From Paludisphaera mucosa (GTDB lineage Bacteria > Planctomycetota > Planctomycetia > Isosphaerales > Isosphaeraceae): DNA of 64,000 nucleotides. A model generated the notes under the pieces. That model was not told the DNA's origin. It saw nothing but the letters and a program-made list of their open reading frames with translations, and ran no database searches. The position numbers and the translations under genes were made by a program. Positions 44,402-64,000 of this stretch are shown in pieces. Position 1 is the first letter of the stretch; each line of letters begins with the position of its first letter. The stretch is taken from assembly GCF_029589435.1 (NCBI RefSeq), contig NZ_JARRAG010000002.1, positions 2,418,001-2,482,000 of the forward strand. Reading direction: 5' to 3'.

Positions 44402-44404
44402 TAG
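43581..44404 (+). CDS. IS5/IS427-like transposase made by -1 frameshifting
   Basis: The first frame (43581-43979) starts MRYLITDETWSVFGPMVEKC and reaches RRLMIDSTIVRAHQHAAGAG (first Asp). At CGA AAA AAG GGG near 43915 a -1 slip on A-AAA-AAG opens the second frame: ALGRSRGGFSTKVIAVACDE, VAEVLGDKGFDSDAV (second Asp) and NRVERAFAKAKQFRRFATRY (Glu). The TAG stop is made of the flanking TA plus the first base of the neighbouring element. It is related to, but clearly diverged from, the element at 13.4-14.4 kb. Confidence 0.85.
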
Positions 44405-45128
44405 TGTTTCGCCACACCTGAGTTTGTGGTTTCCAGGACCGGGTACAGCCGCTTGAGCTTGACCCGGGCGTCCGCCGTCGCGAACTGCCAGTCGACCTTC
44501 ACGGCGGCCGCGTTCCGGCCGGCCTCCCAGGCCGCCACCTCGAGCCTGAGCGAGCCCATGTCGGGGATGCGGCGGTCGAGGCACTGGCGGGCCAGGACCG
44601 ACAACTCGCACTCCGCCACGTTCAGCCAGCTCCCATGCTTCGGCGTGTAGACGAACTCCAGTCGCCCCAGGATCCGCCGCGCCTCGGCCGGCTCGAACGC
44701 CTCGTACAGGGCCGCCGGCTTGTGGGTGCTCAGGTTATCGACCACGAGCGTGACCCGCTCCGCGTCCGCGTACCACTCGTCGGCGATCCGCTTCAGCAGC
44801 CGGGCGAAGTCGGCCTTGGTCTTCCGCTCGGTCACTTCCACGCGCCGCTCCCCCGCCAGCGGCTCGAAGGCCATGAACAGGTTGGCCGTCCCGTGCCGGA
44901 CGTATTCGTAGTCCTCCTTGGCCGGACGCCTCGGGCGGACCGGGAGCGGCGGCCGGGCGTCGCCGATCAGCTGCTTGCCCCCCTCGTCGGCGCAGACCAC
45001 CGGCCGCCTCGGGTCGTAGGGCCGGGCGTAGACCTCCAGCACGCCCTCCATCGCGCAGACGAACTCGGCGTTCGCCTTCGGCGGGATGACCCACTGCTGC
45101 TTCAGCCAGGGCTTGAGCGCGTTTTTTT
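44329..45128 (-). pseudogene. IS630 transposase C-terminal part, copy 2
   Basis: Same DDE domain as the copy at 20113-20840. The flanking base after TA does not make a stop here, so the frame reads on through the IS5 end for about 25 codons (HYGLLTDWASFRTWMNPKTR) to 44329. This shows that the element has no stop codon of its own. Confidence 0.75.
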
Positions 45129-46830
45129 CTAGGACGGTAGAGCCGGCTTGATCGGTAGTTTGCCATCGGTTCTCCTGGGGAAGCCCTCCAGGAGTCGACC
45201 GATGCCCAAGCCCAAGCGGACGCCACGACCGGCCCCCACTCGCACCGTCGAGCTGACGACCGCCACCCGCGTCTGCCCCGGGTGCGACCGGCCCCTCTGG
45301 GCCGCCTACAAGGGCCGCCGCGTCGTCGCCACCCTCGAGGGGCTCACCCGATTCGCCGTCCAGGTCCGACGCTGCCGCGATGCCGACTGCCCCCGCCACA
45401 ACGTCTCGCTCCGGGCCGAAGCCGAGGGGGCCATCGCCCTGCCGCAGCAGGAGTTCGGCCTGGATGTCATCGCCCTGGTCGGTCGCCTCCGCCATGTCGA
45501 GCACCGCGGCGTCGCCGAGATCCACGCCGAGCTGACCCGACGCGGGGTGGGCATCTGCGTGCGGAGCGTCTCCTGCCTGCTGGACCGCTACGACGAGCTG
45601 CTCGCCCTCTCGCTGTCCGACCCCGCCCGACTCCGCCGGGTCGTCGCCGAGGCCGGGCGGGTGATCCTGGCCATCGATGGGCTCCAGCCCGACGTCGGCC
45701 ACGAGGTCCTCTGGGTCATCCGCGACGTCCTCTCCGGCGAGATCCTCCTGGCCCGGAGCCTTCTCTCCTCCTGCCGGGCCGACCTGGCCAAGCTGCTCGG
45801 CGAGGTGAGGTCCGCCCTCCAGCCCGAGGCCGAGGGGGCCGCCGGCGTGCCGATCGTCGGGGTGATCTCCGACGGCCAGCATTCCATCCGCGACGCCGTG
45901 GCCGAAGCCCTGCCCGGCGTGCCGCACCAGCTCTGCCAGTTCCATTACCTCCGCGAGGCGGCCCGGCCGATCTACGAGGCCGATCGCCACGCCAAGGTCA
46001 CGCTCAAGAAGAAGGTCCGGGGCATCCGCCCGATCGAGCGGGCCGTCGAGGGCCGCGACGACGACGAGGCGACGGCGATCCGGGGCTACTGCGCCGCGGT
46101 CCGCACGTCGCTGACCGACGACGGCCGGCCGCCGCTGGCGGCCTCGGGCCTGGTGCTGCGGGACCGGCTGGCGAAGGTCGCCGAGGGCCTGGACGAGGTC
46201 GGCGCCAAAAGGGGCTCCCGAAAGAACTGACGCGGCTGCGTGCGATCCTGGCCGGGGGCCTGGAGGCGACCGATTCGGCGTGGCCCGAGGTGCGTGCGGC
46301 GTTCGGCCGGGTGCATCGCGCCGCGGCGATCCTGCGGAACAAGGCGGGGCTCGACGCCGCCGGGGTGCGGCGTCGGTTCGTCGGGCTGATGGGGGAGATA
46401 GGGCGGCATCGCGATGCCGCCGGGGGGCTGGACGACGCGGTCGGCCATTTCCTGAAGGTGACGCGGAGCTACTGGCCCGGGCTGTTCGCCTGCTATGACA
46501 CGGCCGGCCTGCCGCGGACCAACAACGACCTGGAGCAACTGTTCGGCTCGTATCGCCATCACGAGCGGCGTTGCAGCGGCCGCAAGGTGGCGTCGCCGGG
46601 GATGGTGGTGCGGGGCTCGGTACGGCTGGTCTCGGCGACCGCGACCCGGCTCCGGCCGATCGAGAGGGCCGACCTGGTGCCATCGGACCTCGCGGCGTGG
46701 CGGGCGCTCCGCGGTGGGCTGGAGCGGAGGCAGGAGGTCAGGAAGATGGGCCACCGCTTCCGCCGCGATCCCGCGGCTTACCTGCTGTCGCTTAAGGAGA
46801 TCATGATCAAGCCGGCTCTACCGTCCTAGT
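45129..46830 (+). mobile_element. MULE-like transposon inserted in the IS630 frameshift site, copy 2
   Basis: Same 25-bp inverted repeats and flanking T7 runs as 20841-22542; moved together with the surrounding IS630. Confidence 0.8.
45202..46829 (+). CDS. MULE-like DDE transposase in two frames, copy 2
   Basis: As far as I can read it, the protein is identical to the copy at 20914-22541: the first frame ends at 46230 and the rest lies in the -1 frame to 46829. The frame break at GCCAAAAGG (near 46206) is conserved. Either it does not prevent function, or it arose before the composite was duplicated. Confidence 0.65.
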
Positions 46831-47274
46831 TTTTTTTAGGACCCGGCGGACCGTCTCGTCGCTGACGGCGTCCACCGACTCCAGCTCGACCAGCCGGTCG
46901 GCCAGCATCTTGAGCGTCCACCGAGCCTTCCCGTCCGGCGGCGAGGAACAGGCCAGTGAGACGAGCCGGGCCTCTTGCGCCCCGTCGAGCTTGCGGTATC
47001 GTCGGCCGGTCGGCTTCCTGCGGTGAAGGGCCGCGTCGAGCCCGCACTCGGCGAACCGCTTGCGGACGCGGGCGACCGTGCCCTCCGAGCACTCGATCGC
47101 CTCGGCGATCGCGGCGTCGCCCAGCCCGGGCCCGCTGGGGCCGACGTCCGCCTTGAGCAGGATGCGGGCGTGGACGAGGGCGGCCGCGGCGTGGCGGCCC
47201 CCGGCGATCATCTTCTCGAGCTGCCTCCGTTGATCGTCGGTCAGCCGGACGAGGCGCTTGTCCTTCAGGGCCAT
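46807..47274 (-). pseudogene. IS630 transposase N-terminal part, copy 2
   Basis: Same helix-turn-helix part as 22519-22986, starting at 47274 after GGAGGAG and ending inside the MULE-like transposon. Confidence 0.75.
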
Positions 47275-47340
47275 GGCGGATCTCCTCCTTCGTGGAAGAG
47301 ATCCTACCAAAACCGTCAACTCAGGTGTGGCGGACCACTA

Positions 47341-47600
47341 GGGACGTCGGCCCCAAACGGTTCGGCGAGGCGGTCCGGGGCCACTGGTCGATCGAATCGA
47401 TGCACTGGGTCCTCGACGTCGTCTTCCGCGAGGACGACCGCCGCACCCGCGAACGCGTCCTGGCCGACAACCTCAGCTGGCTCCGCCGCTTCGCCGTGAC
47501 CCTCCTGAAACGCCATCCCGTCAATGACAGCATCCGGGGCAAGATGCTCGCCTGCGGATACAACACCGACTATCTGACGCAAGTCTTGGACATCACATAG
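47341..47600 (+). pseudogene. ISAs1-family transposase C-terminal remnant
   Basis: The frame reads VRGHWSIESMHWVLDVVFRE, ERVLADNLSWLRRFAVTLLK and NTDYLTQVLDIT, the end of an ISAs1 transposase, cut at its left by composite copy 2. The outer repeat (GCGCTGGCCCTG near 47615) follows. It is a different subtype from the copies at 19.9 and 51 kb. Confidence 0.75.
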
Positions 47601-53913: not shown

Positions 53914-55866
53914 TCAGGCGGCCCTGGGGCCGTCGACGTCGCTGGGCGACCAGCCGGCCAGCGGCTCGAAGCGGTAGCGGGGGTGGCGGTGCCGACGAGT
54001 CCTTTTCGAGTCCTCGAGCGGCCCGGTCATGCGGACGTAGGGGTCGGCCAGGCCCTTCTCGTCCATCAGGCGGTCCAGCGAGGCCGCCCGTTGGGTGGCG
54101 GTCACTGTCAGTCCCAACTGCGCGGCGACCTTCTTCTCGGACGATCCGGAGGCCCTCAGCTCGACCACCCGCTCGCGGAAGGCGACCCGCTGGGGCGGCT
54201 CGAAGAGGTCGACGACCAGCTCGAGCTTCAGCGGGGCCAGCCGGCCCTCGAGCGCCCCGGTGCCGGGCACCAGCGCCGTCAGGTCGACCGTCAGGTGGGC
54301 CCGGGGCTCGACGGCCTCGCCGTCGCAGAGCCGGTAGGGGATCACTTCCAGCCTCGGCAGCAGCCGCCGGGCCAGCCGGGCGGCCTCCTGGGAGTCGGTC
54401 AGGAGACCCTCGAACGCCTCGCCGGCCAGGGCCCGGAGCCGCTCCTTCGTCGGCAGCACGAGCGGCTCGGCCGGCGTCCGCGCCAACTCGGCCAGTTCGA
54501 AGTCCAGCCGCTCGCGCTCGGCTTCCAGCTCGTGGAGCTTCTCCACCAACGCCGCGCTCGGCCCGGCGGCCGTCATCGCGGCGACGACGTTGTCGACCTG
54601 GCGGGCCGCCTCGGCCGCGTCGCGACGCAGGCCCGCGGCCGTCCTGCCCTGCTCGGCCTCGACCAGCTCGACCTCCCGCTCCAGCTCGGAGCGGAGGGCT
54701 GCGTCGAAGTCGCACATCCCTTCCACCCCGGCCAGGACCGCCCGCGCGATCATGCGGGCGGCCAGGCCGGCCCCGACGGTCGCGCCGTTCCAGCAGCGGT
54801 GGTCCCGGGCCCCGCTGCAGATCAGGTGATCGGCCCGTCCGTGGCCGCCGTAGTAGCAGAGCCGCCCGCAGATCCCGCAAGTCAGGTGCTGGCCGGGGAA
54901 GGCCGTCCGCTTTCGCGAGACGCCCTTGCGGGCGTCCAGGCCCTTGGCCTTGTACTTCGCGGTGCGGCGTTTGATCAGCGCGACGACGCGGTCGTAGCGA
55001 TCCGGATCGATGAACGCCAGGTGCGGGACGTGCCGCACCAGCAGGTCCTCGGGAGGGGCCGGGACGTTGTGCGAGCGGCCCGTCTTGTTCGTCCGCTTCG
55101 CGATCATCCTGTTGCGGACCCTTTCGCCCTTGAGGATCGGGTTGAGCGTGGCGCCGCGGACCCGGGCGATGTTCCAGGTCGCCGAACGGCAGGCCGGCCC
55201 GGGGCGGACGCCCAGGCCGTTGAGCCAGTCCGCGACCTCGGCGTAGGTGGCGCCGCCCTCGAGGAGCCGGAACCATTCGTCGTAGATCGCCTCGGCCTCG
55301 GGGGCCTTGACGACGTCGGCGTCGGACGCGGCCCCCGGCGGCTTGATGTAGCCGTAGACGAGGGTCTGGACCACGCCGCCCTGGGCGAACCGATTGCGCA
55401 GCGAGCGGCGGATCCGCCGGGAGGTGTCGCGGCAGGAGGCCTCGTGGCGGAAGACGTTGAAGAAGGCCCCGAGGTGCCAGTCGTCGCGGGCGGTATCGAC
55501 GAAGTCGTTGACGGCGATCAGCCGGGCCCCGTGGTCCTGGGCCAGCTCGCAGATCTCGTAGGCGTGGGCGCGGCGGCAGATCCGGGCCAGGTCCTCGGCG
55601 ACGACCAGGTCGAAGCCGCGGCCCTCGATAAGCCGCTCGATCTCGAGCAGTTCCACGCGGTCGAGGTGCTGGCCGGAGCCCCGGCTGGCGATCACCTTCA
55701 CATCGACGCGGCCCTCGTAGGCGGCCGCGAGGTGGTCGCGGAGCATGGCCTCCTGGTCGGCGAGGCTCTTTACGTCCTGCTGCTCGGTGCTGATCCGGCA
55801 GACCATGAGGACGCGGAGGACCTGGCCGGACCTCGGGGCCAGGGGCGGGTCGAGGCGACCGCTCAT
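53914..55866 (-). CDS. Large serine recombinase
   Basis: 650 residues. Ser26 in VLMVCRISTEQQDVKSLADQ is the nucleophile. Then come DLVVAEDLARICRRAHAYEI, RHEASCRDTSRRIRRSLRNR (resolvase domain), TLVYGYIKPPG and ATLNPILKGERVRNRMI (recombinase domain), a zinc ribbon (LTCGICGRLCYYGGHGRADH...CSGARDHRCWNG), a coiled coil and an unusual C-terminal helix-turn-helix (SGSSEKKVAAQLGLTVTATQ). It may integrate or excise the element that carries the tyrosine integrase and replication genes to its right. It is transcribed away from them and has its own terminator. Confidence 0.88.
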   Translation of the reverse strand: MSGRLDPPLAPRSGQVLRVLMVCRISTEQQDVKSLADQEAMLRDHLAAAYEGRVDVKVIASRGSGQHLDRVELLEIERLIEGRGFDLVVAEDLARICRRAHAYEICELAQDHGARLIAVNDFVDTARDDWHLGAFFNVFRHEASCRDTSRRIRRSLRNRFAQGGVVQTLVYGYIKPPGAASDADVVKAPEAEAIYDEWFRLLEGGATYAEVADWLNGLGVRPGPACRSATWNIARVRGATLNPILKGERVRNRMIAKRTNKTGRSHNVPAPPEDLLVRHVPHLAFIDPDRYDRVVALIKRRTAKYKAKGLDARKGVSRKRTAFPGQHLTCGICGRLCYYGGHGRADHLICSGARDHRCWNGATVGAGLAARMIARAVLAGVEGMCDFDAALRSELEREVELVEAEQGRTAAGLRRDAAEAARQVDNVVAAMTAAGPSAALVEKLHELEAERERLDFELAELARTPAEPLVLPTKERLRALAGEAFEGLLTDSQEAARLARRLLPRLEVIPYRLCDGEAVEPRAHLTVDLTALVPGTGALEGRLAPLKLELVVDLFEPPQRVAFRERVVELRASGSSEKKVAAQLGLTVTATQRAASLDRLMDEKGLADPYVRMTGPLEDSKRTRRHRHPRYRFEPLAGWSPSDVDGPRAA

Positions 55867-56265
55867 CGGCCACCCCCCCGCCCCGTTCGGCCGGCGTCGG
55901 AGAGTGACGTTTCCAGAGCGCCGACGGGGCCGTCGACCTGTGCTGAAATTGTGCTGAAAGGGATGCGAGACGACCCCAAACGACCGGGGATGACCGCGGA
56001 GGACGGGCTCGGCTCAAACCTAGCGGGCGTCAGGCCTTGGGCCGTAAATCGTGTGTCGCCTGAGGGTTGCGTGGGGCGGGTCTTGCGAATCCCCCCCTCT
56101 CCGCTGAGTTTTCCCGCCGGTCGCCGCAAGTCGATAATCATCATCGAGTTGCGGCCATAATCCTGCCTGCCGACGACCGCCCTGGTGCACGTTTGGTGCA
56201 CGGACCGTGCACCGGGAGCGTGTCCCTTGTCCCGGCCCCGTCGACCTCAGCCCTCGCGACATCGC
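55867..56265. other. Divergent promoter region between serine recombinase and tyrosine integrase
   Basis: About 400 bases. Features seen: a direct repeat TGTGCTGAAA (55939 and about 55950) upstream of the recombinase, and three GTGCAC motifs before the integrase. No gene is recognised. Confidence 0.45.
56185..56212 (+). promoter_or_regulatory. Three GTGCAC palindromes spaced 11 bases apart
   Basis: GTGCAC occurs at 56185, 56196 and 56207, exactly one helical turn apart, about 54 bases before the likely integrase start. This suggests an operator or an arm-type binding site for a recombination or regulatory protein. Confidence 0.5.
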
Positions 56266-57582
56266 GTGGGTCGCGTCTCGTATTACCTTCGCAACGGCTC
56301 CTGGCACATCTACTACCGCGACGGCGAACGCCAGGTCCGACGCCGCGTCGCCCCGACCGAGGAAGAAGCCGCGCGGATCGCCGCCCAGGTCAACTCCCAG
56401 CTGCTCTCCGCGGCCCCGACCCTGCTCGCCTTCACGCCCCTCGGGGTCGCCGAGCTGCGTCGCCGGTTCCTCGACCATCACGAGCTGGTCCAGCGGTCCT
56501 CCCTGGCCACCCTCAGCCGCTACCGGGCCGCCACGCGATACCTGGAAGACTACGCCGCCGGCCTCTCCCCGGCCGCCGCCATGGCCCACGAGCTGCGGCC
56601 CCAGGCCTTCGTCGCCCACCTCCGCTCGCTCTCGGTCGCCCCCAACGGGCACCCGAACACGGCCCGGCGGCCGCTCCGCGACAAGGGGGTCCGCTACATC
56701 CTGGAATGCTGCCGCTCGATGTACGGCTTCGCCGCGAGGATGCGCCACCTGCCCCCCTACGCCGGCAACCCCTTCGCCGAGCTCAGGCTCGACCGGATGA
56801 AGCTCGAGGACGCCAAGCCGGTCTTCGTCTTCGACGAAGCCGCCGAGCTGGCCTTCTTCCGGGCCGCCGACGACTGGGCGTTCGCGGTCCACTTCACGCT
56901 GGCCAAGACCGGGATGAGGCCCGGCGAGCTGGCCCACCTGCTGGTCGAGGACGTCGACCTCGACGCGGGCTGGCTGCACGTTCGAAACCGGCCTGCGTTG
57001 GGCTGGCGGATCAAGACGGGCAAGGACCGCTCCCTCCCCCTGATCGAGGAGCTGGTCGAGGTGCTGAGGCGCGTGATCGGGGCTCGTCCGGCCGGGCCGA
57101 TCTTCCTGCGGCGGCGGTACGACCCCGGCTCCTCGCCGGCGGGGGCGTCGGACCAGTCGGCTTTGGTCCGGCTCCTCGAGAAGAGGGCCGCAGCGGAAGC
57201 CGATCTAGCGGGACGCGCGTTGACGCGGGCCGAGCGGGCCCGGGTCGCGCGCGGCGTCTGGCGGGACGCCGGCGCCATCGACCCGGACCAGGCCCGCACG
57301 GCGTTCCTTCAGACGACAAGGGCGATGGGGCTCGCCGGGGCGACCTGCCCGAAGAGCTGGAGGCACACCTTCGCCACGCTGCTGCAGGACGCCAACGTCG
57401 ACCCGCTGATCAGGCAGGTGACCCTGGGCCATCAGCCCGGCTCGCCGGGCTCGGGGGCGCTGGGGATGACGGGGGTCTACACCCACTCGCGCCCCGAGAC
57501 GCAGCGTCGCGAGATCCTCCGCGCCCTGCGGCTCTGGCCGCTGTCGCTGCAACACGCGCGTGACCGGGCCCGGGTCGGATAG
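56266..57582 (+). CDS. Tyrosine recombinase/integrase
   Basis: About 438 residues from a GTG at 56266 (GRVSYYLRNGSWHIYYRDGE), preferred over the GTG at 56185, which would translate the GTGCAC repeats. Arm and core-binding parts (VQRSSLATLSRYRAATRYLE) precede the catalytic domain: LAKTGMRPGELAHLLVEDVD (Arg near 215), GWRIKTGKDRSLPL (Lys), CPKSWRHTFATLLQDANVDP (HxxR box; the first His position appears to be Lys), TLGHQPG (His) and GVYTHSRPETQR (Tyr near 404). Apparently intact. An excisionase-like gene lies 76 bases downstream on the opposite strand. Confidence 0.88.
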   Translation: MGRVSYYLRNGSWHIYYRDGERQVRRRVAPTEEEAARIAAQVNSQLLSAAPTLLAFTPLGVAELRRRFLDHHELVQRSSLATLSRYRAATRYLEDYAAGLSPAAAMAHELRPQAFVAHLRSLSVAPNGHPNTARRPLRDKGVRYILECCRSMYGFAARMRHLPPYAGNPFAELRLDRMKLEDAKPVFVFDEAAELAFFRAADDWAFAVHFTLAKTGMRPGELAHLLVEDVDLDAGWLHVRNRPALGWRIKTGKDRSLPLIEELVEVLRRVIGARPAGPIFLRRRYDPGSSPAGASDQSALVRLLEKRAAAEADLAGRALTRAERARVARGVWRDAGAIDPDQARTAFLQTTRAMGLAGATCPKSWRHTFATLLQDANVDPLIRQVTLGHQPGSPGSGALGMTGVYTHSRPETQRREILRALRLWPLSLQHARDRARVG

Positions 57583-57658: not shown

Positions 57659-57868
57659 TCAGGAGTCCGCCGGGGGGGCCGTCGCCCTCCCGGCGATCGC
57701 CCGGCGGATCCGTTCGACGTCGATCTCGCTGAAGAGGCGGCGGCCGGGCACCTGGAGGGATGGGCCCGGGACGTCGCCTCGTTCGATCCAGTAGGCCAAC
57801 CGCCATCGGGAAACCCCCAGCCGGGAGGCGACCGGGCCGATCGTCGAGAGATTGTCCGTCCGACGCAT
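57659..57868 (-). CDS. Excisionase / MerR-type helix-turn-helix protein
   Basis: 69 residues from the ATG at 57868: LSTIGPVASRLGVSRWRLAY, WIERGDVPGPSLQVPGRRLF, SEIDVERIRRAI. This is the winged-helix pattern of Xis-type excisionases (HTH_17). It lies convergent to the integrase and likely controls the direction of recombination. A longer open frame to 58126 adds no recognisable sequence. Confidence 0.65.
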   Translation of the reverse strand: MRRTDNLSTIGPVASRLGVSRWRLAYWIERGDVPGPSLQVPGRRLFSEIDVERIRRAIAGRATAPPADS

Positions 57869-58122
57869 ATGCGACCATCCGTCCGTCGTGGGCCACCGAA
57901 CATTTACGTCCACATCGAGTGGGGGAACGCCGGATGAAACCGTGGCGCACATCGCCGGTTTCACCGGCGTCGCTACCCGTGTCGCGAATTCGGCCGGGAT
58001 CGCCCGTCCTCGTGGGGAGGGCAGGATCATCCAGGCTGAACGGGCCGGGGACGAGGGATTTGGGTCGGACCCGCCATGATCGGACCGAAACACGGTCGTC
58101 CTCCGGCCCGGCGGAGTCGTCG

Positions 58123-59625
58123 TCAATCGTCGTCGGGTTGCTCGCCTCCAACGCCCAGGACGACCCTGCCAACCGCCCCGATCTCGGCCCGGTCCGTGAT
58201 GAGCGGAATGATGAATTCACATCCCGGATTCAGGCAGGCGTAGGTGATCGTGATCGGGTCCCTTTCTGGGTCGTCCACCGTCGCTTTCGGTGACGGCGTC
58301 GAACAGCCGCAACCCAGCCCCCTCGATTCGAGGATTCGCATCACGATCAGGGCGAGTCTGTCCACGATCGGCTCGGGTGCCGCGTCCCTCTTCTCATCGA
58401 AGACGAGGGTGGCGGGTCGCTTGATTTCGCAGTCGAGTCGGCGGCGTTCCGAATTCAGATCGACGTAAGATTGCATAACCTGATGCAAGACCCTGACGTG
58501 GTCCGAGTCGCCGGGATTCTCGCAGAGGTTTCCGAGCGATCCCTCGAGGAACTGGAAGCGGTCGACGAGGAGGATCATGGGGAGGCCGCCGAAGTGCGGT
58601 TGGGGTAGGTGCATCCCCTCGAAGATGCGACGTTCGCGGAGGCTCAGCGGTACAGGCAGGGCCTTGGCGACGGCCAGCATCAGGTAACCGACACACTCCG
58701 CCACGTAGCCGTGGGCATTCCAGCCGAGCTGGATGAGAGCCCGACGCACCATCGGTCCCTTCAAGATCCCACCCCGAGCCTTCTTCCGGCCGCCGATTTG
58801 CTTGACGAGGCTGCTGCCACGGCCCGAAAACCAGCCGTTGTAACGGGCTGCCGGTTTCTCGAGGTGGCGGCCAAGTGCGTCGCAGAGCCTCTCGACCACC
58901 ACGGCCTCGCTTACGGCATCCTCCGGGTTGCTCTCGAAGCCGACCCCGAACACGACGGACCGGATCAAGTCGGAGACGTTTGCGACGGGGGGCCCAGGGT
59001 TCGATCGGGCATGGGCGGCGAAACCGTAGCTGATGCTCTGCCCATACGAGGGATCATCAATACCCGCCTCGCGGGCGTCGTTGCGTCCTGCGTCGAGCAG
59101 GGTCTCGATCGGGTCCCGACCGAGTCCCGGGCCATAAAGGGGGTAGAGCCCGTCCACGAGGGTGTGATTCGACGATCCACCGGATCCGGCGATGCGGAGG
59201 TCCTTCGGGCTGTTGAACTTCCTCAGGCAGAACTCCTTCGTCCTGCGTGCGCGCTGGATGGCCAGGAACGCCAGCCGATGACGGAAGATGTTCTCGGGGG
59301 ACAAATCTCCATCCCGTTCGCGCATCGCCAACCCGGCCTCGCCCATCACCGCGACGACAAGGCCGGCCAATCCCCCCGCGGGCGTCCCCTTCGGGCGTTC
59401 TTTCGGCCCGACCGCGGAGATGTAGCGGATTCCATCCGCCCCGACGTGGATGCGTATGGGCAGGCATAAGCCTCGAGGTAGTGGGTTAGGGAGGTCGTCC
59501 GGGGGAGTCCACACCCACATCGTCGACCGGGCCTGCACGACCGTCCCCATGGCCTCGCTCAAGAGGGAGGGAGCGCCGCGATCATCCGTGGGCGTGAGCT
59601 TGCCCCAATCCTTGGTCGAATCCAT
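58123..59625 (-). CDS. Protein of unknown function, 500 residues
   Basis: The frame from an ATG at 59625, with GGGGGA upstream, looks like a genuine soluble protein, but I do not recognise it. Visible segments: MWVWTPPDDLPNPLPRGLCL, ENIFRHRLAFLAIQRARRTK, YNGWFSGRGSSLVKQIGGRK, APEPIVDRLALIVMRILESR, and a C-terminal Cys-rich piece (GLGCGCSTPSP...YACLNPGCEFIIPL) that could bind zinc. There is no signal peptide or membrane helix. It lies between the integrase/excisionase and the replication genes, so it is probably element cargo or a replication/maintenance factor. Confidence 0.65.
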   Translation of the reverse strand: MDSTKDWGKLTPTDDRGAPSLLSEAMGTVVQARSTMWVWTPPDDLPNPLPRGLCLPIRIHVGADGIRYISAVGPKERPKGTPAGGLAGLVVAVMGEAGLAMRERDGDLSPENIFRHRLAFLAIQRARRTKEFCLRKFNSPKDLRIAGSGGSSNHTLVDGLYPLYGPGLGRDPIETLLDAGRNDAREAGIDDPSYGQSISYGFAAHARSNPGPPVANVSDLIRSVVFGVGFESNPEDAVSEAVVVERLCDALGRHLEKPAARYNGWFSGRGSSLVKQIGGRKKARGGILKGPMVRRALIQLGWNAHGYVAECVGYLMLAVAKALPVPLSLRERRIFEGMHLPQPHFGGLPMILLVDRFQFLEGSLGNLCENPGDSDHVRVLHQVMQSYVDLNSERRRLDCEIKRPATLVFDEKRDAAPEPIVDRLALIVMRILESRGLGCGCSTPSPKATVDDPERDPITITYACLNPGCEFIIPLITDRAEIGAVGRVVLGVGGEQPDDD

Positions 59626-60164
59626 CCGAGTACGTCCCCCATCGAAATAGCGATCGGGAAAAAATCATCCGGCGTTCCCATGACCACTGAAGGGTGATCG
59701 CTGGCCACCAATCGATGGGCATCCGGACCTGGCGACATCGTGTAGGAATATCTTGATCCTACGTCGTAATCCTCATTCGTACAGATGAATTTTTGGCCAG
59801 CAGCATTTTATTGGTTCTGGCTGGACGAAAGACCAGGCCGAGCGAGGCCAGGCGAAATTCAGAAGCGACGGTGGATTGCAGCCGAACCGGGGGTCGCCCG
59901 TGTGCTCGATGGGGCGCGGGCGATCCGCGAGCAGCCGATGGACGTACACGCAAGGAGGAAGAAATTTGGATGCGCTGATCAGGGGGGATCGAAATCGACC
60001 GCCGCGATCCGGGGGGGATCATGATCCCCGTCGCGTCCGGGGTGTTCGTCGAGGACGCGGCGGGGGCCGCCAGATGCACCCCCGCCGCCCGTGCTACGCC
60101 CCGACGCCGGCCCTGGACCGCCGGCGTCGACACCGAGCTTGACGTTCACCAGGAGCCTTGCGCG
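59626..60164. other. Divergent intergenic region before the replication genes
   Basis: About 540 bases, AT-richer around 59740-59820, with no recognisable gene. It probably holds divergent promoters for the 500-residue protein and the primase-like gene. Confidence 0.35.
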
Positions 60165-60917
60165 ATGAACACCGACCCCGACGTCCGAGAGGCGCTCTAC
60201 AACGACCGCCCCACGGGCCCCGTGCATCAGATCCAACTGCCGACCGAGCGGATCACCGTCCTGCACGGCTTCATGCTCGACCTCGACCCGAAGCTGCTGC
60301 GCCCCGGCAACGCCCTGTTCCCCCCGGACCCCGACCCGAGGCGGTTTTACGAGAACATCAGGCCGGTCCTCCTACGGCACCCGATCGTGCGCCACGCCGA
60401 GATCCGGGCGAGCGGGACCGGGCTGCACGCCCTAGTCCACCTCGAGCCGCCCGTCGAGCTGACGTCGGCGGCCGACCAGCGCCGCTGGGCCGCCCTGGTC
60501 CGGTCCGTCCAGTGCACCCTGCCCTCCGACCCGGCGGCGCCGGGCATCACCGCCCTGACCCGGCCGGTCGGCTCGACCAATTCGAAGAACGGAGCCGTGG
60601 TCGAGACCCTCTGGGCCGGCGAGCCCATCGCCCCGGGGCGGCTCGAAGAATTCGTGGGGTCGGTGATCGCGGACCCGTTCCGGGCGGTGGCGACGATCCT
60701 GCTCGGGGCCGATCAGGTCCGCCCCTGCCCGGTCTGCCGCGGCGAGGGCAGCCGTCTCGACGTCCTCGCCCGTCACGGCTTCTGCTACGAGGGCTGCCGC
60801 AAGATCGACCTGGGGAAGCTTCTCGACGCGATCTACAAGACGGACGAGCCCGTCGCCCCCGATCGCGACGGGCCGGGGACGGACGCTCGCAAGAAGGCCG
60901 TCAAGGCCCGGGACTGA
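60165..60917 (+). CDS. Primase-like (AEP-type) replication protein
   Basis: 250 residues from the ATG at 60165 with AGGAG nine bases upstream. EIRASGTGLHALVHLEPPVE and GITALTRPVGSTNSKNGAVV resemble the sugar/nucleotide-binding strands of archaeo-eukaryotic primase/polymerase domains in mobile elements. PCPVCRGEGSRLDVLARHGF with CYEGC gives a four-Cys zinc site near 188-210. The expected N-terminal DxD pair is not obvious (FMLDLDPKLL may be it), so activity is inferred. It is followed 150 bases later by the helicase-like gene, suggesting one operon. Confidence 0.6.
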   Translation: MNTDPDVREALYNDRPTGPVHQIQLPTERITVLHGFMLDLDPKLLRPGNALFPPDPDPRRFYENIRPVLLRHPIVRHAEIRASGTGLHALVHLEPPVELTSAADQRRWAALVRSVQCTLPSDPAAPGITALTRPVGSTNSKNGAVVETLWAGEPIAPGRLEEFVGSVIADPFRAVATILLGADQVRPCPVCRGEGSRLDVLARHGFCYEGCRKIDLGKLLDAIYKTDEPVAPDRDGPGTDARKKAVKARD

Positions 60918-61066
60918 CGCATGTTCGACGAGGCGGCCGCCGCGGAGCGACGCCGGCTCGAACGTATGCGTTGAGAATAACACCGAAGACGAGTCGACGG
61001 GGGCCGCAGGCGATCCCGACGGCCCCTGCGGCTCCCGCCGATGCATCACGAAAGGGCGATCCCATC

Positions 61067-62896
61067 ATGGCCAGCACCGCGTCCCCCGGCAAGTCCATGG
61101 CCGCCACGCTGCACGACAGCCTCCTCGCCAGCCGGATCGGCGCCGCCGCCGGCGATCACGCCCGCCAAATCATCGCGGGGGTCACCCCCGACGGCTCGTT
61201 CGTCGACGGTATGACCGTCGACGCCTTCGTCCACCAGGCCGGCCAGGTCCTCCTGGACAGCGGCCGCGTCTATCGCTATGGCAACTCGATCGTCCAGGAG
61301 ACCGACCGGCCGGGGGACCAGAGGCTCACGAGCCTCGCCGTGCAGCACCGGGCCGAGCCCAACGCCGCGCACGTCCTGACGAATCACTTCGGCATCGCCT
61401 ACCAGGGCAAGCAGGGCGACGTCCAGAGCCTGCTCACACCGAAGCTCGTCGGTGCCCTCCTGGCCGACGAGGGCCTGTGGCGGCACCTGCCCGAGATTCG
61501 CTACCACACCCGGCTGCCGACCTTCGACGCCGACTTCAACCTTTGTTGGCAGGGCTGGAACTCAGCCTCGGGCATCCTGGTCCACGGCCCCGAGATCGTG
61601 CCCGAGACCACGCCGTCGTCCTACGCCCCGGACGCACGGGCCGTCGACCGACTCCCGCACCGCCTCCGCGGGCTCTTCCGGGAGTTCTACTGGCGTTCCG
61701 ACGCCGACATGGTCAACGCGATCGCCATGCTCCTGACCGGGCTGCTGGGCAACCACTTCGTCGACGCACCCCACCCCGGCGGCATCGTCGACGCCAACCA
61801 GCCGGAGCTCGGCAAGACCCTGCTGGTGCAGTGCATCGGCCGCGTCCTCGACGACGCCGAGCCGCCCCGGATCTCCCTGGCCCGCGACGAGGAGCTGGAG
61901 AAGCGGCTCTGCGCCCAGCTCCGCAGCTCGAAGACGAGCCTGTTCTTCTTCGACAACGTTCGCACCAGGATCGAATCGGCGGTCATCGAGCAGAACATGC
62001 TCTCGCCCCTGATCAGCCTCCGCATCCTGGGCCTATCGGCCACGATCGAGCGGCCGAATACGTACCTCTGGTTCATCACGAGCAACTTGACCGCGGGCAC
62101 CCCCGACTTCATCGGGCGGTGCGTCCCGATCCGGCTCCATTACGAGGGGGACCCGAAGGGGCGCATGTTCTCGGGAGACCCCCTGGCGTACGCCGCCGAA
62201 CACCGCCTGCCCATCCTCGCCGAGCTGGCCGGGATGGTCCTGCGCTGGGCCCAGCAGGGCCGACGCCCGGGAGACCACAAGCATCGCTGCAGGCGCTGGG
62301 CTGCCACCATCGGCGGCATCCTCGACGCCGGCGGCCTGGGCGAGTTCTTCCTGGCCAACGCCGCCGAGGCCGGGGCGGCGATGGACGAGGGCATGCAGGA
62401 CCTCGCGACCCTGGCCGAGCACGCCGTCGGTAAGAATCTGGCCGACACCCACGGTCTCGCGGAACGCGATCCGGCCCCCAGGGGGCGGACCCCGGGCGAA
62501 TGGGTGGTCCTGTTCGCGGAGACCCAGGTCCTCAAGGACCGGCTCGCGGTGGGCACCGTCAGGGGCAGGGCGACGGTCGTCGGCATCTTCCTGAGCGATA
62601 AGGTGGGCCGCACCGTGACCATCGAGACGGCCGACGGCACGCGTGAGGCAACCCTCCGCAGGCGCGACGAGAGCGGCAACACGAAGTTCTACTATTTCTC
62701 GATCGCGTTCCAAAAGTCCGCCGTCCCCGGGTCGGCCTCGTCGGCGGCCTCGGCGGCCGCGAGTCACGGAGCCGCAGTACCAGCGCCGGCCGCGGCCGGG
62801 GGGGCTGCCCCGACCGCCGCCTCTCCTCCCCCGGCCGACGCGGCCTCGATCGGCGAACCCGCCCCCCCGACCACGGAAGACCTGGAATGGATTTGA
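61067..62896 (+). CDS. Replicative helicase-like ATPase
   Basis: 609 residues from the ATG at 61067. The core has IVDANQPELGKTLLVQCIGR (Walker A-like GKT near residue 249), SKTSLFFFDNVRTRIES (Walker B-like near 292) and NTYLWFITSNLTAGTPDFIG (sensor Asn), an order seen in virus- and plasmid-type AAA+ or SF3 helicases that act with primases. The N-terminal part (AGQVLLDSGRVYRYGNSIVQ) resembles the region before such helicase domains. The C-terminus is a low-complexity Ala/Pro tail. With the primase-like gene before it and the iteron-like motifs and DNA polymerase after it, a role in replicating the element is likely. Confidence 0.65.
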   Translation: MASTASPGKSMAATLHDSLLASRIGAAAGDHARQIIAGVTPDGSFVDGMTVDAFVHQAGQVLLDSGRVYRYGNSIVQETDRPGDQRLTSLAVQHRAEPNAAHVLTNHFGIAYQGKQGDVQSLLTPKLVGALLADEGLWRHLPEIRYHTRLPTFDADFNLCWQGWNSASGILVHGPEIVPETTPSSYAPDARAVDRLPHRLRGLFREFYWRSDADMVNAIAMLLTGLLGNHFVDAPHPGGIVDANQPELGKTLLVQCIGRVLDDAEPPRISLARDEELEKRLCAQLRSSKTSLFFFDNVRTRIESAVIEQNMLSPLISLRILGLSATIERPNTYLWFITSNLTAGTPDFIGRCVPIRLHYEGDPKGRMFSGDPLAYAAEHRLPILAELAGMVLRWAQQGRRPGDHKHRCRRWAATIGGILDAGGLGEFFLANAAEAGAAMDEGMQDLATLAEHAVGKNLADTHGLAERDPAPRGRTPGEWVVLFAETQVLKDRLAVGTVRGRATVVGIFLSDKVGRTVTIETADGTREATLRRRDESGNTKFYYFSIAFQKSAVPGSASSAASAAASHGAAVPAPAAAGGAAPTAASPPPADAASIGEPAPPTTEDLEWI

Positions 62897-62899
62897 AGC

Positions 62900-63216
62900 G
62901 TGGACCTCCGCGGCGGGCGTGGACCTCGCCCGAACCTCCGAATAGCGAGGTCAACGATTGCAAGACTTCGACACATATAGGTTTAAGGCCTGGCCGTTAA
63001 CCTTGTTAACCTCTCGAGGGCAGCTGCAGCCCCGGGCGTGAAACGTGTCGCCATGGGGCGATTCCCGTGACCTGGCGTGGGGGGCGGCCGAACCCGCACT
63101 CGAGGTCAACGAGGTTAACGGACGCGACGAATGTGTTTGACGTTGAAGCCTCTAAGGCCTGTCGACCTTGTCGGCGAGAGGTCAACTCGAGGTCCACGTG
63201 CAGGCGTGAGGTCCAC
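62900..63216. repeat. Iteron-like array (GAGGTYMAC), putative replication origin
   Basis: Nine copies of GAGGTCCAC, GAGGTCAAC or GAGGTTAAC. Plus strand: 62947, 63102, 63111, 63178, 63189, 63208. Minus strand: 62900-62908, 62919-62927, 63005-63013; a near copy is at 62996. Several spacings are 9, 11 or 19 bases. The 20-base blocks at 62994 and 63102 form an inverted repeat, and TAAGGCCTG recurs at about 62984 and 63153. The stretch is AT-richer than its surroundings and has no gene. Iterons beside replication genes commonly mark a plasmid-type origin. Binding by the upstream gene products is inferred. Confidence 0.65.
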
Positions 63217-63257
63217 CGGCAAGAGGCCGCACCGCACCGATTCAGGAGCACCCCGCC

Positions 63258-64000
63258 ATGATCGAGATCGTCCTCGGCACCCATCGATGCCCGTTCCGCG
63301 ACTGGACGCCGGAGCAGGGCCGCGTCTTCGGCGGCCTCTTCGCCTACGACGTCGAGACGACCCGGTTCGACGACCGCGTTTACCTGACGCCGTCGCTCGT
63401 CCTGGCCACCGCCTGCGACGGCGGGCGGGGTTGCTTCGTCCCCCGCGACCTGGTCCCGGCGTTCTTCGCCGCCCACGCCGGTCAGGGCTTCATCGCACAC
63501 AACGCCGCCTTCGACCTGAAGGTCACCCAGGCCGTCCTGGGCGACCGGCTCGACCTTTACGACCTCGTCGACGAGGGCAAGATCTGGGACACGCTGATCC
63601 TGAAGCGGCTCCTGTCCCTGGCCACCGCCGGCCACACCGCCCGCAACGAGTGCGGCCTGGACGACTGCGCAAAGGCCCACCTCGGCCTGGAGCTGCCCAA
63701 GGACGTCAAGGACGCCGACGGCTGCGACGTCCGCACCGGCTTCGGCCGCTATCTGGGCCGGCCGTCCCGCGAGATCCCCGAGGAGCACCTCCGCTACGCC
63801 GCCGGCGACTCGCTGGCGACCTGGCACCTGTTCTGGGAGCTGAACCGGCTGATCAAGGTCGTCCTGCAGGACGCCTCCGGGGTCTGGGGCTACGTCGACG
63901 ACGCCTGGCTGCGGGACGCGATCCGCCGCTTCGGCCCCCTGACGCACCACATCCAGCTCCGCGCCAGCATCGTCACCGACGTCCTCAGCGCCACCGGCGT
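63258..64000 (+). CDS. Family A DNA polymerase, 5' part (partial)
   Basis: Open from the ATG at 63258 (AGGAG nine bases upstream) to the window edge, 247 codons. The visible part is a DEDD 3'-5' exonuclease: LFAYDVETTRFDDRV (Exo I, D31 and E33), GQGFIAHNAAFDLKVTQAVL (Exo II) and EEHLRYAAGDSLATWHLFWE (Exo III, Tyr...Asp near 180). This precedes the polymerase domain in phage- and plasmid-type family A polymerases; the palm domain would lie outside the window. The gene starts just after the iteron-like array. Confidence 0.75.
   Translation, partial: MIEIVLGTHRCPFRDWTPEQGRVFGGLFAYDVETTRFDDRVYLTPSLVLATACDGGRGCFVPRDLVPAFFAAHAGQGFIAHNAAFDLKVTQAVLGDRLDLYDLVDEGKIWDTLILKRLLSLATAGHTARNECGLDDCAKAHLGLELPKDVKDADGCDVRTGFGRYLGRPSREIPEEHLRYAAGDSLATWHLFWELNRLIKVVLQDASGVWGYVDDAWLRDAIRRFGPLTHHIQLRASIVTDVLSATG

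Follow-up and report, generated by a model that had tools for sequence, protein, structure and literature searches.

A probable island replication module with a linked proofreading polymerase in Paludisphaera mucosa

Does a 64-kb stretch of the Paludisphaera mucosa genome hold the machinery with which an integrative genomic island copies itself? The genome (G000) comprises 8.2 Mb in nine contigs, and the stretch analysed here, called the window below, is a 64,000-nucleotide part of contig 2. A first-pass annotation had described the right end of the window as a self-contained replicon with primase-like and helicase-like genes, an iteron-like array and a family A polymerase. We consider it very probable that this locus serves an integrative genomic island as its replication module, in which the helicase would load at the array, an archaeo-eukaryotic primase (AEP) would prime, the island's own polymerase would extend, and the excised island would thereby copy itself. 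Comparison with relatives gives good support for a mobile element with a self-contained initiation module that includes its own polymerase. No ligase, single-stranded DNA-binding protein (SSB), clamp or 5'-3' exonuclease was recognised within the module, so help from the host is still expected. The module is laid out as follows.

60165..60917, + strand: AEP-type primase (250 aa; residues invariant in 12 homologues and an AlphaFold model)
61067..62896, + strand: AAA+/superfamily 3 (SF3)-like replicative helicase (609 aa; alignment, PHROGs and plasmid homologues)
62483..62713, + strand: helicase C-terminal domain, proposed iteron-binding winged helix (three helices, then three strands)
62897..63257, unstranded: putative replication origin, a mirrored 9-bp iteron array filling the helicase-polymerase gap
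62900..62955, unstranded: left outer iteron group (sites 62900-62908 and 62919-62927 in one direction, 62947-62955 in the opposite one)
62956..62995, unstranded: left arm, AT-richer, a possible unwinding site
62996..63119, unstranded: central module (tandem doublet 62996-63013, spacer, inverted doublet 63102-63119)
63120..63160, unstranded: right arm (49-bp site-to-site distance)
63161..63216, unstranded: right outer iteron group (63161-63168, a variant, then 63178-63186, 63189-63197 and 63208-63216)
63258..64000 in the window, continuing to 65570, + strand: family A DNA polymerase (770 aa)

The three open reading frames (ORFs) are intact, consecutive and all on the + strand, in the order first proposed. 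The end of the polymerase gene lies beyond the window and was read from the extended contig (L002:5258-7570, equivalent to window 63258-65570).

The primase gave no usable Pfam, NCBIfam, PHROG or PDB match by sequence, and its fold alone identified it. The top Foldseek match of its AlphaFold model (pLDDT 88.6) was the AEP domain of the cyanophage S-2L PrimPol (6zp9, E 4e-5, prob 1.00), followed by RepB' (3h20, prob 0.97). As modelled, the product of 60165-60917 has an RRM-like AEP fold, which makes it a member of the AEP superfamily. Twelve homologues share an invariant DxD (D39, D41), SGxGLH (G84, G86, H88), D122, R133, N139 and K141, together with an invariant CPxC..C zinc-like segment (C188, C191, C207). 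The AEP catalytic motifs hDhD, sxH and hD are thus represented by the invariant D39, D41 and H88, and D122, also invariant, is judged from the sequences to be the likely third catalytic acid.

The helicase alignment revealed an invariant P-loop ATPase core with a Walker A motif (ANQPELGKT), a Walker B-like motif (FFFDN) and a sensor-like N340. Its matches were all distant, and only to phage and plasmid replication proteins (phrog_10537, E 1e-26; phrog_19930, "DNA polymerase/primase", 6e-5); a profile search of the PDB returned chance matches only. Its C-terminus is confidently predicted to form a helix-helix-helix-strand-strand-strand domain. A linker comes next, and then a conserved acidic tail in which one Trp is invariant (TEDLEWI in the window copy, GNDExW elsewhere). 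The domain had no PDB sequence match and no significant Foldseek match. In L037-L041, L065 and L066, several of them Gemmataceae-type copies, it is encoded by a separate small ORF, which in several Gemmataceae-type copies begins at or just past the helicase stop.

The polymerase matched DNA_pol_A (PF00476, E 2e-29) and DNA_pol_A_exo1 (PF01612) above the Pfam cut-offs. It consists of 3'-5' exonuclease and polymerase domains and lacks the 5'-3' exonuclease. Polymerase motifs A, B and C and the exonuclease motifs DxE, D and YxxxD are all present, and the catalytic residues D31, E33, D86, D184, D408, R461, K465, H678 and D679 are all invariant among the homologues. By these residues it is a family A enzyme with an intact proofreading 3'-5' exonuclease.

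Between the helicase and polymerase genes lies the array. The motif GAGGTYMAC occurs nine times in the window, and all nine copies fall within 317 bp of this gap (62900-63216); dinucleotide shuffles of the whole window averaged 1.77 copies and never exceeded 6. Nor is the motif scattered at the same density elsewhere, which would have spoken against an array: the rest of the window has none, and the 60 kb surrounding the module (from 38 kb to ~98 kb in window numbering) add one scattered copy. Two more sites, GTCGACCT at 63161 and GTTAACCTT at 62996, join the array by position, giving at least 11 sites. The repeats are arranged in mirror fashion, with direct as well as inverted copies. The array first called iteron-like is therefore present, with more sites than the nine counted and a different type from simple direct iterons. 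The left arm has an AT fraction of 0.55 versus 0.37 in the rest of the gap; the AT-richer stretches sit in the arms, and facing iteron sets are present.

Nearly all relatives of the module carry an array in the same gap, built from a word that differs by lineage: GTKRACCTC in G000, GGTGAACCT in L035 and L036, GGTGGACCT in L043, RTTAACCT in L044, GGTGAATAG in L038-L041 and GGTGGATRK in L037 and L066, with GTGAAGNN as another lineage-specific word. A likeness of GGTGAACCT to the phage P4 repeat was not used as evidence. In 7 of 11 loci the commonest word of the gap beat every shuffle. The loci have a common layout. From an outer group, a 48-50-bp arm leads to a tandem doublet (8-9 bp apart); beyond a spacer come the inverted doublet, another arm of 48-50 bp and an outer group that mirrors the first. 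Facing sites inside the outer groups are mostly ~17-20 or 28-29 bp apart, distances that differ by roughly one helical turn. We compared this geometry in 15 loci with the same number of sites per locus placed at random (5000 trials). The 48-50-bp arm was found in 10 of the 15 loci (random mean 1.1, maximum 5), the tandem doublet in 14 (mean 1.4, maximum 6) and the central module in 13 (mean 0.08, maximum 2). Three loci that were looked at once the layout was known (L066, L068 and L070) all fit it. Arm interiors are only 35% identical between loci, so the spacing is kept while the sequence drifts.

How widely is the module distributed, and do its parts travel together? The helicase was found in 32 of 119 related genomes (E 0.001 or better). 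The full gene order was present in 13 further planctomycete loci, ten of them fetched and three from a scan of ~85,000 species genomes; L070, from the same scan, has the same order, but its contig ends within the polymerase gene. Partial copies cut by the contig occur in L069 and in Paludisphaera soli (L046), a same-genus relative that has the primase. The polymerase gene was found in every locus whose contig reaches far enough. All primase matches in the scan belonged to Planctomycetota, and no close copy of the module was found outside this phylum; searches for primase homologues in IMG/VR and on plasmids found none. Distances among primases, helicases and polymerases are correlated (Mantel r 0.79-0.94, with 0 of 5000 permutations as high), and by this measure the three proteins share one history. 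One genome, G070, carries the module twice. The two polymerases share 56% identity, whereas one of them is 81% identical to a copy in G112, a pattern of sequence identity that fits horizontal movement.

Complete circular actinomycete plasmids provide a further comparison. Homologues of the helicase (25-28% identity) lie on them beside, or fused to, an AEP primase, and inverted arrays follow directly behind the helicase gene: CGGGTAG occurs 14 times in L119 (shuffle maximum 7), GCAGGGA 13 times in L117 (maximum 5) and AAACCCG 10 times in L118, the plasmid pCM32 (maximum 6). The array of plasmid L120 is weaker, and L122 and L123, two plasmids of more distant kinship, yielded none behind their helicases. 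The plasmid pCM32 and the Streptomyces plasmids (NZ_KM260754, NZ_CP109084, NZ_CP108372) have, like the window, an AEP primase, a homologous helicase and an inverted iteron array downstream, and pCM32 also has a helix-turn-helix (HTH) gene and an integrase. Unlike the module, these plasmids have no polymerase beside the array, and they use other words and spacing. Since a circular plasmid needs an origin, these arrays are the strongest non-experimental support for reading the array in the window as an origin.

We also found evidence that the module resides on mobile islands. In four relatives (L039, L040, L042 and L044) the module and a tyrosine integrase are found close to genes for tRNA-Val, -Pro, -Lys and -Gly, and 43-47-bp copies of the tRNA 3' ends recur 57, 76, 146 and 124 kb away. 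By sequence, the four are tRNA-targeted integrative islands, whose spans of 57-146 kb may each hold more than one island, a second integrase being found past the 57-kb repeat. G000 retains the order of integrase, HTH gene and module, with the window integrase on the same side of the module and in the same direction as in L039, L040 and L044. The window copy itself has no tRNA nearby and no convincing direct repeat; for its integrase, only 20-bp matches, near chance, were found as candidate attachment (att) repeats. Same-genus flanks searched for an empty site were swamped by insertion sequence (IS) copies on the left and had no shared flank on the right.

How might these parts work together? 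The C-terminal domains of the Rep protein of Staphylococcus aureus pathogenicity islands (SaPIs) and of Cch2 of the staphylococcal cassette chromosome mec (SCCmec) recognise repeats that follow shortly after the helicase gene (PMC7581432). By analogy, the helicase would bind the 9-bp repeats right behind its own gene through its winged-helix-like C-terminal domain. Two hexamers facing one another would probably load on the mirrored repeat sets, an arrangement that the layout suits, and the helicase may then melt the DNA between the sets. The separate AEP primase would lay primers on the opened strands, and the island's proofreading family A polymerase would extend them, so that the excised island would copy itself.

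The claim that the element differs in this from typical integrative elements, which rely on the host, was too strong: SaPIs and other phage-inducible chromosomal islands (PICIs), Salmonella genomic island 1 (SGI1) and SCCmec likewise bring initiators and iteron origins of their own, and several have primases (PMC6092414, PMC7433901, PMC7581432). What is unusual here is the linked proofreading family A polymerase. The pri-rep-ori regions of SaPI/PICI elements (PMC6092414, PMC7581432) share with the module an integrase, a primase, an initiator helicase, an iteron origin directly 3' of the helicase gene, facing iteron sets and a DNA-binding C-terminal domain on the helicase, the origin and the DNA binding being proposals for the window copy. 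PICIs have the order int-xis-pri-rep-ori (PMC6092414), and int, pri, rep and then ori immediately 3' of rep is the order in G000, L039, L040 and L044. In contrast to SaPI/PICI elements, the module adds the polymerase past the origin and has a three-part mirrored array with fixed 48-50-bp arms, its islands span 57-146 kb, and no packaging or phage-interference genes were seen. The two iteron sets of SaPI/PICI elements flank an AT-rich region; the module has facing sets, and its AT-richer stretches are in the arms and not in the centre.

The Cch2 operon of SCCmec (CCPol-MP-Cch2; PMC7581432, PMC10061031) likewise combines a family A polymerase, an integrative element, an initiator helicase and short downstream repeats. 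However, CCPol lacks the exonuclease and is paired with the SSB-like MP as primase, and SCCmec has three repeats compared with ~11 array sites here. An SCCmec-type CCPol-MP operon was ruled out, because the polymerase of the module keeps its exonuclease and its primase is a separate AEP. The alpha protein of phage P4 joins primase, helicase and a C-terminal winged helix that binds origin repeats, as proposed for the module, but alpha and the pRN1 replication protein (PMC4234260) are single fused proteins with no linked polymerase described there; moreover, the P4 primase is of the Toprim type, and pRN1 has a stem-loop instead of iterons. SGI1 (PMC7433901) is a genomic island with an iteron origin downstream of rep and both excises and replicates, but with a RepA_C initiator, 17-bp direct iterons and a DnaA box, and no polymerase of its own has been described.

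These comparisons leave several other explanations to be weighed. The polymerase could be an accessory, with helicase and primase initiating at the array, the host replicase doing the bulk synthesis and the island polymerase only repairing or extending the first primers. We regard this as a serious possibility that falls somewhat short of an even chance: CCPol is proposed to leave bulk synthesis to the host polymerase (PMC7581432), and the related actinomycete plasmids manage without a polymerase beside the array, but the exonuclease and polymerase catalytic residues are all invariant, the gene is in every locus that is not cut short, and the precedent, CCPol, has itself no exonuclease. Equally tentative is the wider proposal of a planctomycete-wide island family with a nearly complete replisome and a three-part mirrored origin with 48-50-bp spacing, in which the islands' own polymerase would carry out bulk synthesis in place of the host's. 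That the array is an operator or promoter region, controlling the polymerase gene or autoregulating the operon, seems unlikely. It does lie directly upstream of the polymerase start, promoter-region repeats often bind regulators, and a simple scan of 59600-63300 gave no sigma-70-like promoter; yet an operator usually needs less than what is seen here (as many as 13 mirrored sites across ~300 bp, their arms fixed at 48-50 bp), and the homologous plasmid arrays are not upstream of a polymerase gene.

That the region belongs to an ordinary prophage or a phage satellite is very improbable, even though PICIs share its gene order and a marine viral contig carries a similar operon. This operon (L051:2896-9191; IMG/VR 3300000114_000001) encodes a D5/DUF5906 helicase with a weak RFX-type DNA-binding match, an AEP Prim-Pol, a protein of no assigned function and a polymerase orthologous to that of the window (hhalign E 3e-103). 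Homology of its helicase and primase to those of the module was not detectable, so the set may have assembled more than once, and no array was found near the operon. Neither PHROGs nor the Pfam families shown gave a capsid, portal or large terminase in the 57-kb island of G070, the one island scanned; a prophage, the alternative raised at the outset, is not supported on this evidence. No terS, packaging or phage-interference genes were recognised beside the module, the only terS-like gene being in a second, separate island in tandem. A further rival concerns G000 itself. The module there could well be a relic, with intact genes on an island that lost excision as IS elements broke its ends, although we lean slightly away from this. 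IS630- and IS4-type elements lie directly downstream, many multi-copy IS elements lie to the left, and no att copy was found for the integrase; against this, the module ORFs, the full array and the integrase ORF are all intact.

Several observations weigh against a replication module as the best explanation. The helicase has no Pfam SF3 or D5 match and is called SF3-like by inference only, from P-loop motifs and distant homologues among the primase-helicases of mobile elements; the winged-helix matches of its C-terminal domain (Zur, Fur and ORC2, VIA-align) are weak, with a best Z of 4.9, and the iteron word did not covary with this domain beyond the helicase core (partial r 0.10). In G000 the central stretch that separates the doublets is GC-rich. 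The gap of L042 shows no clear array, and those of L040, L041 and L065 only a partial one; the geometry test used related loci and word variants that were partly chosen by eye beforehand. The G000 module is crowded by IS elements on both sides, its ends are not placed, and the short contigs of relatives showed no terminal overlap as a sign of circularity.

The module suggests a minimal replicon and a candidate vector. The related loci also form a natural series of putative origins in which the word changes and the spacing stays constant, from which one could learn how spacing and sequence are read by an initiator helicase. We found few descriptions of mobile-element replication in Planctomycetota in the literature, and none of this kind. 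The locus is a case in which a proofreading polymerase is coupled, on an integrative island, with the island's own primase, helicase and putative origin; in the nearest known case, SCCmec, the polymerase lacks proofreading and synthesis by the host is assumed.

Two site-specific recombinases had been noted beside the module, and both are real. They and the HTH gene are as follows.

53914..55866, - strand: large serine recombinase (PF00239, PF07508)
56185..57582, + strand: tyrosine integrase (PF00589, E 2e-14; phrog_1, E 2e-36)
57659..58126, - strand: MerR-type HTH protein, a possible excisionase or regulator (PF13411, E 4e-7; weak match to the excisionase phrog_66)

No counterpart of the serine recombinase was found near the module in relatives; it is not conserved with the module and may stem from another insertion. 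Several copies of the module have a DUF1580 protein 5' of the primase, where an excisionase would be expected (L039:7667-8122, L036:2550-2834). Between the HTH gene and the primase, the window encodes a 500-aa protein of no known family (58123-59625, - strand). Behind the polymerase (L002:7768-8896) are a 298-aa protein and a short "STGPKTxxGKARSAxNG" protein, neither with a family match, whose relatives occur near the module in L040 and L042.

The 57-kb stretch of G070 between the tRNA-Val repeats (L039/L081/L110; G070:C1:3972368-4029495) carries genes for Cas3-like, Cas5, Csd1, Cas7 and Cas1 proteins, a UvrA-like gene, sigma factors and other cargo. A second island of ~12 kb, in tandem at the same tRNA-Val repeat, encodes an integrase, a replication-initiation-like protein and a terminase small subunit-like protein (L111:5551-10170; G070:C1:4029551-4034170) and is possibly a phage satellite in a planctomycete. 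Among the IS elements of G000, two related IS4-type transposase genes in opposite orientations (L002:10639-12051, - strand; L002:12244-13698, + strand) lie directly to the right of an IS630-type element, downstream of the polymerase. Finally, 2.9 kb of the window (44402-47341) is 100% identical to C2:2438114-2441052, ~24 kb to the left, and parts of it recur exactly elsewhere; this exact duplicate points to recent IS activity.

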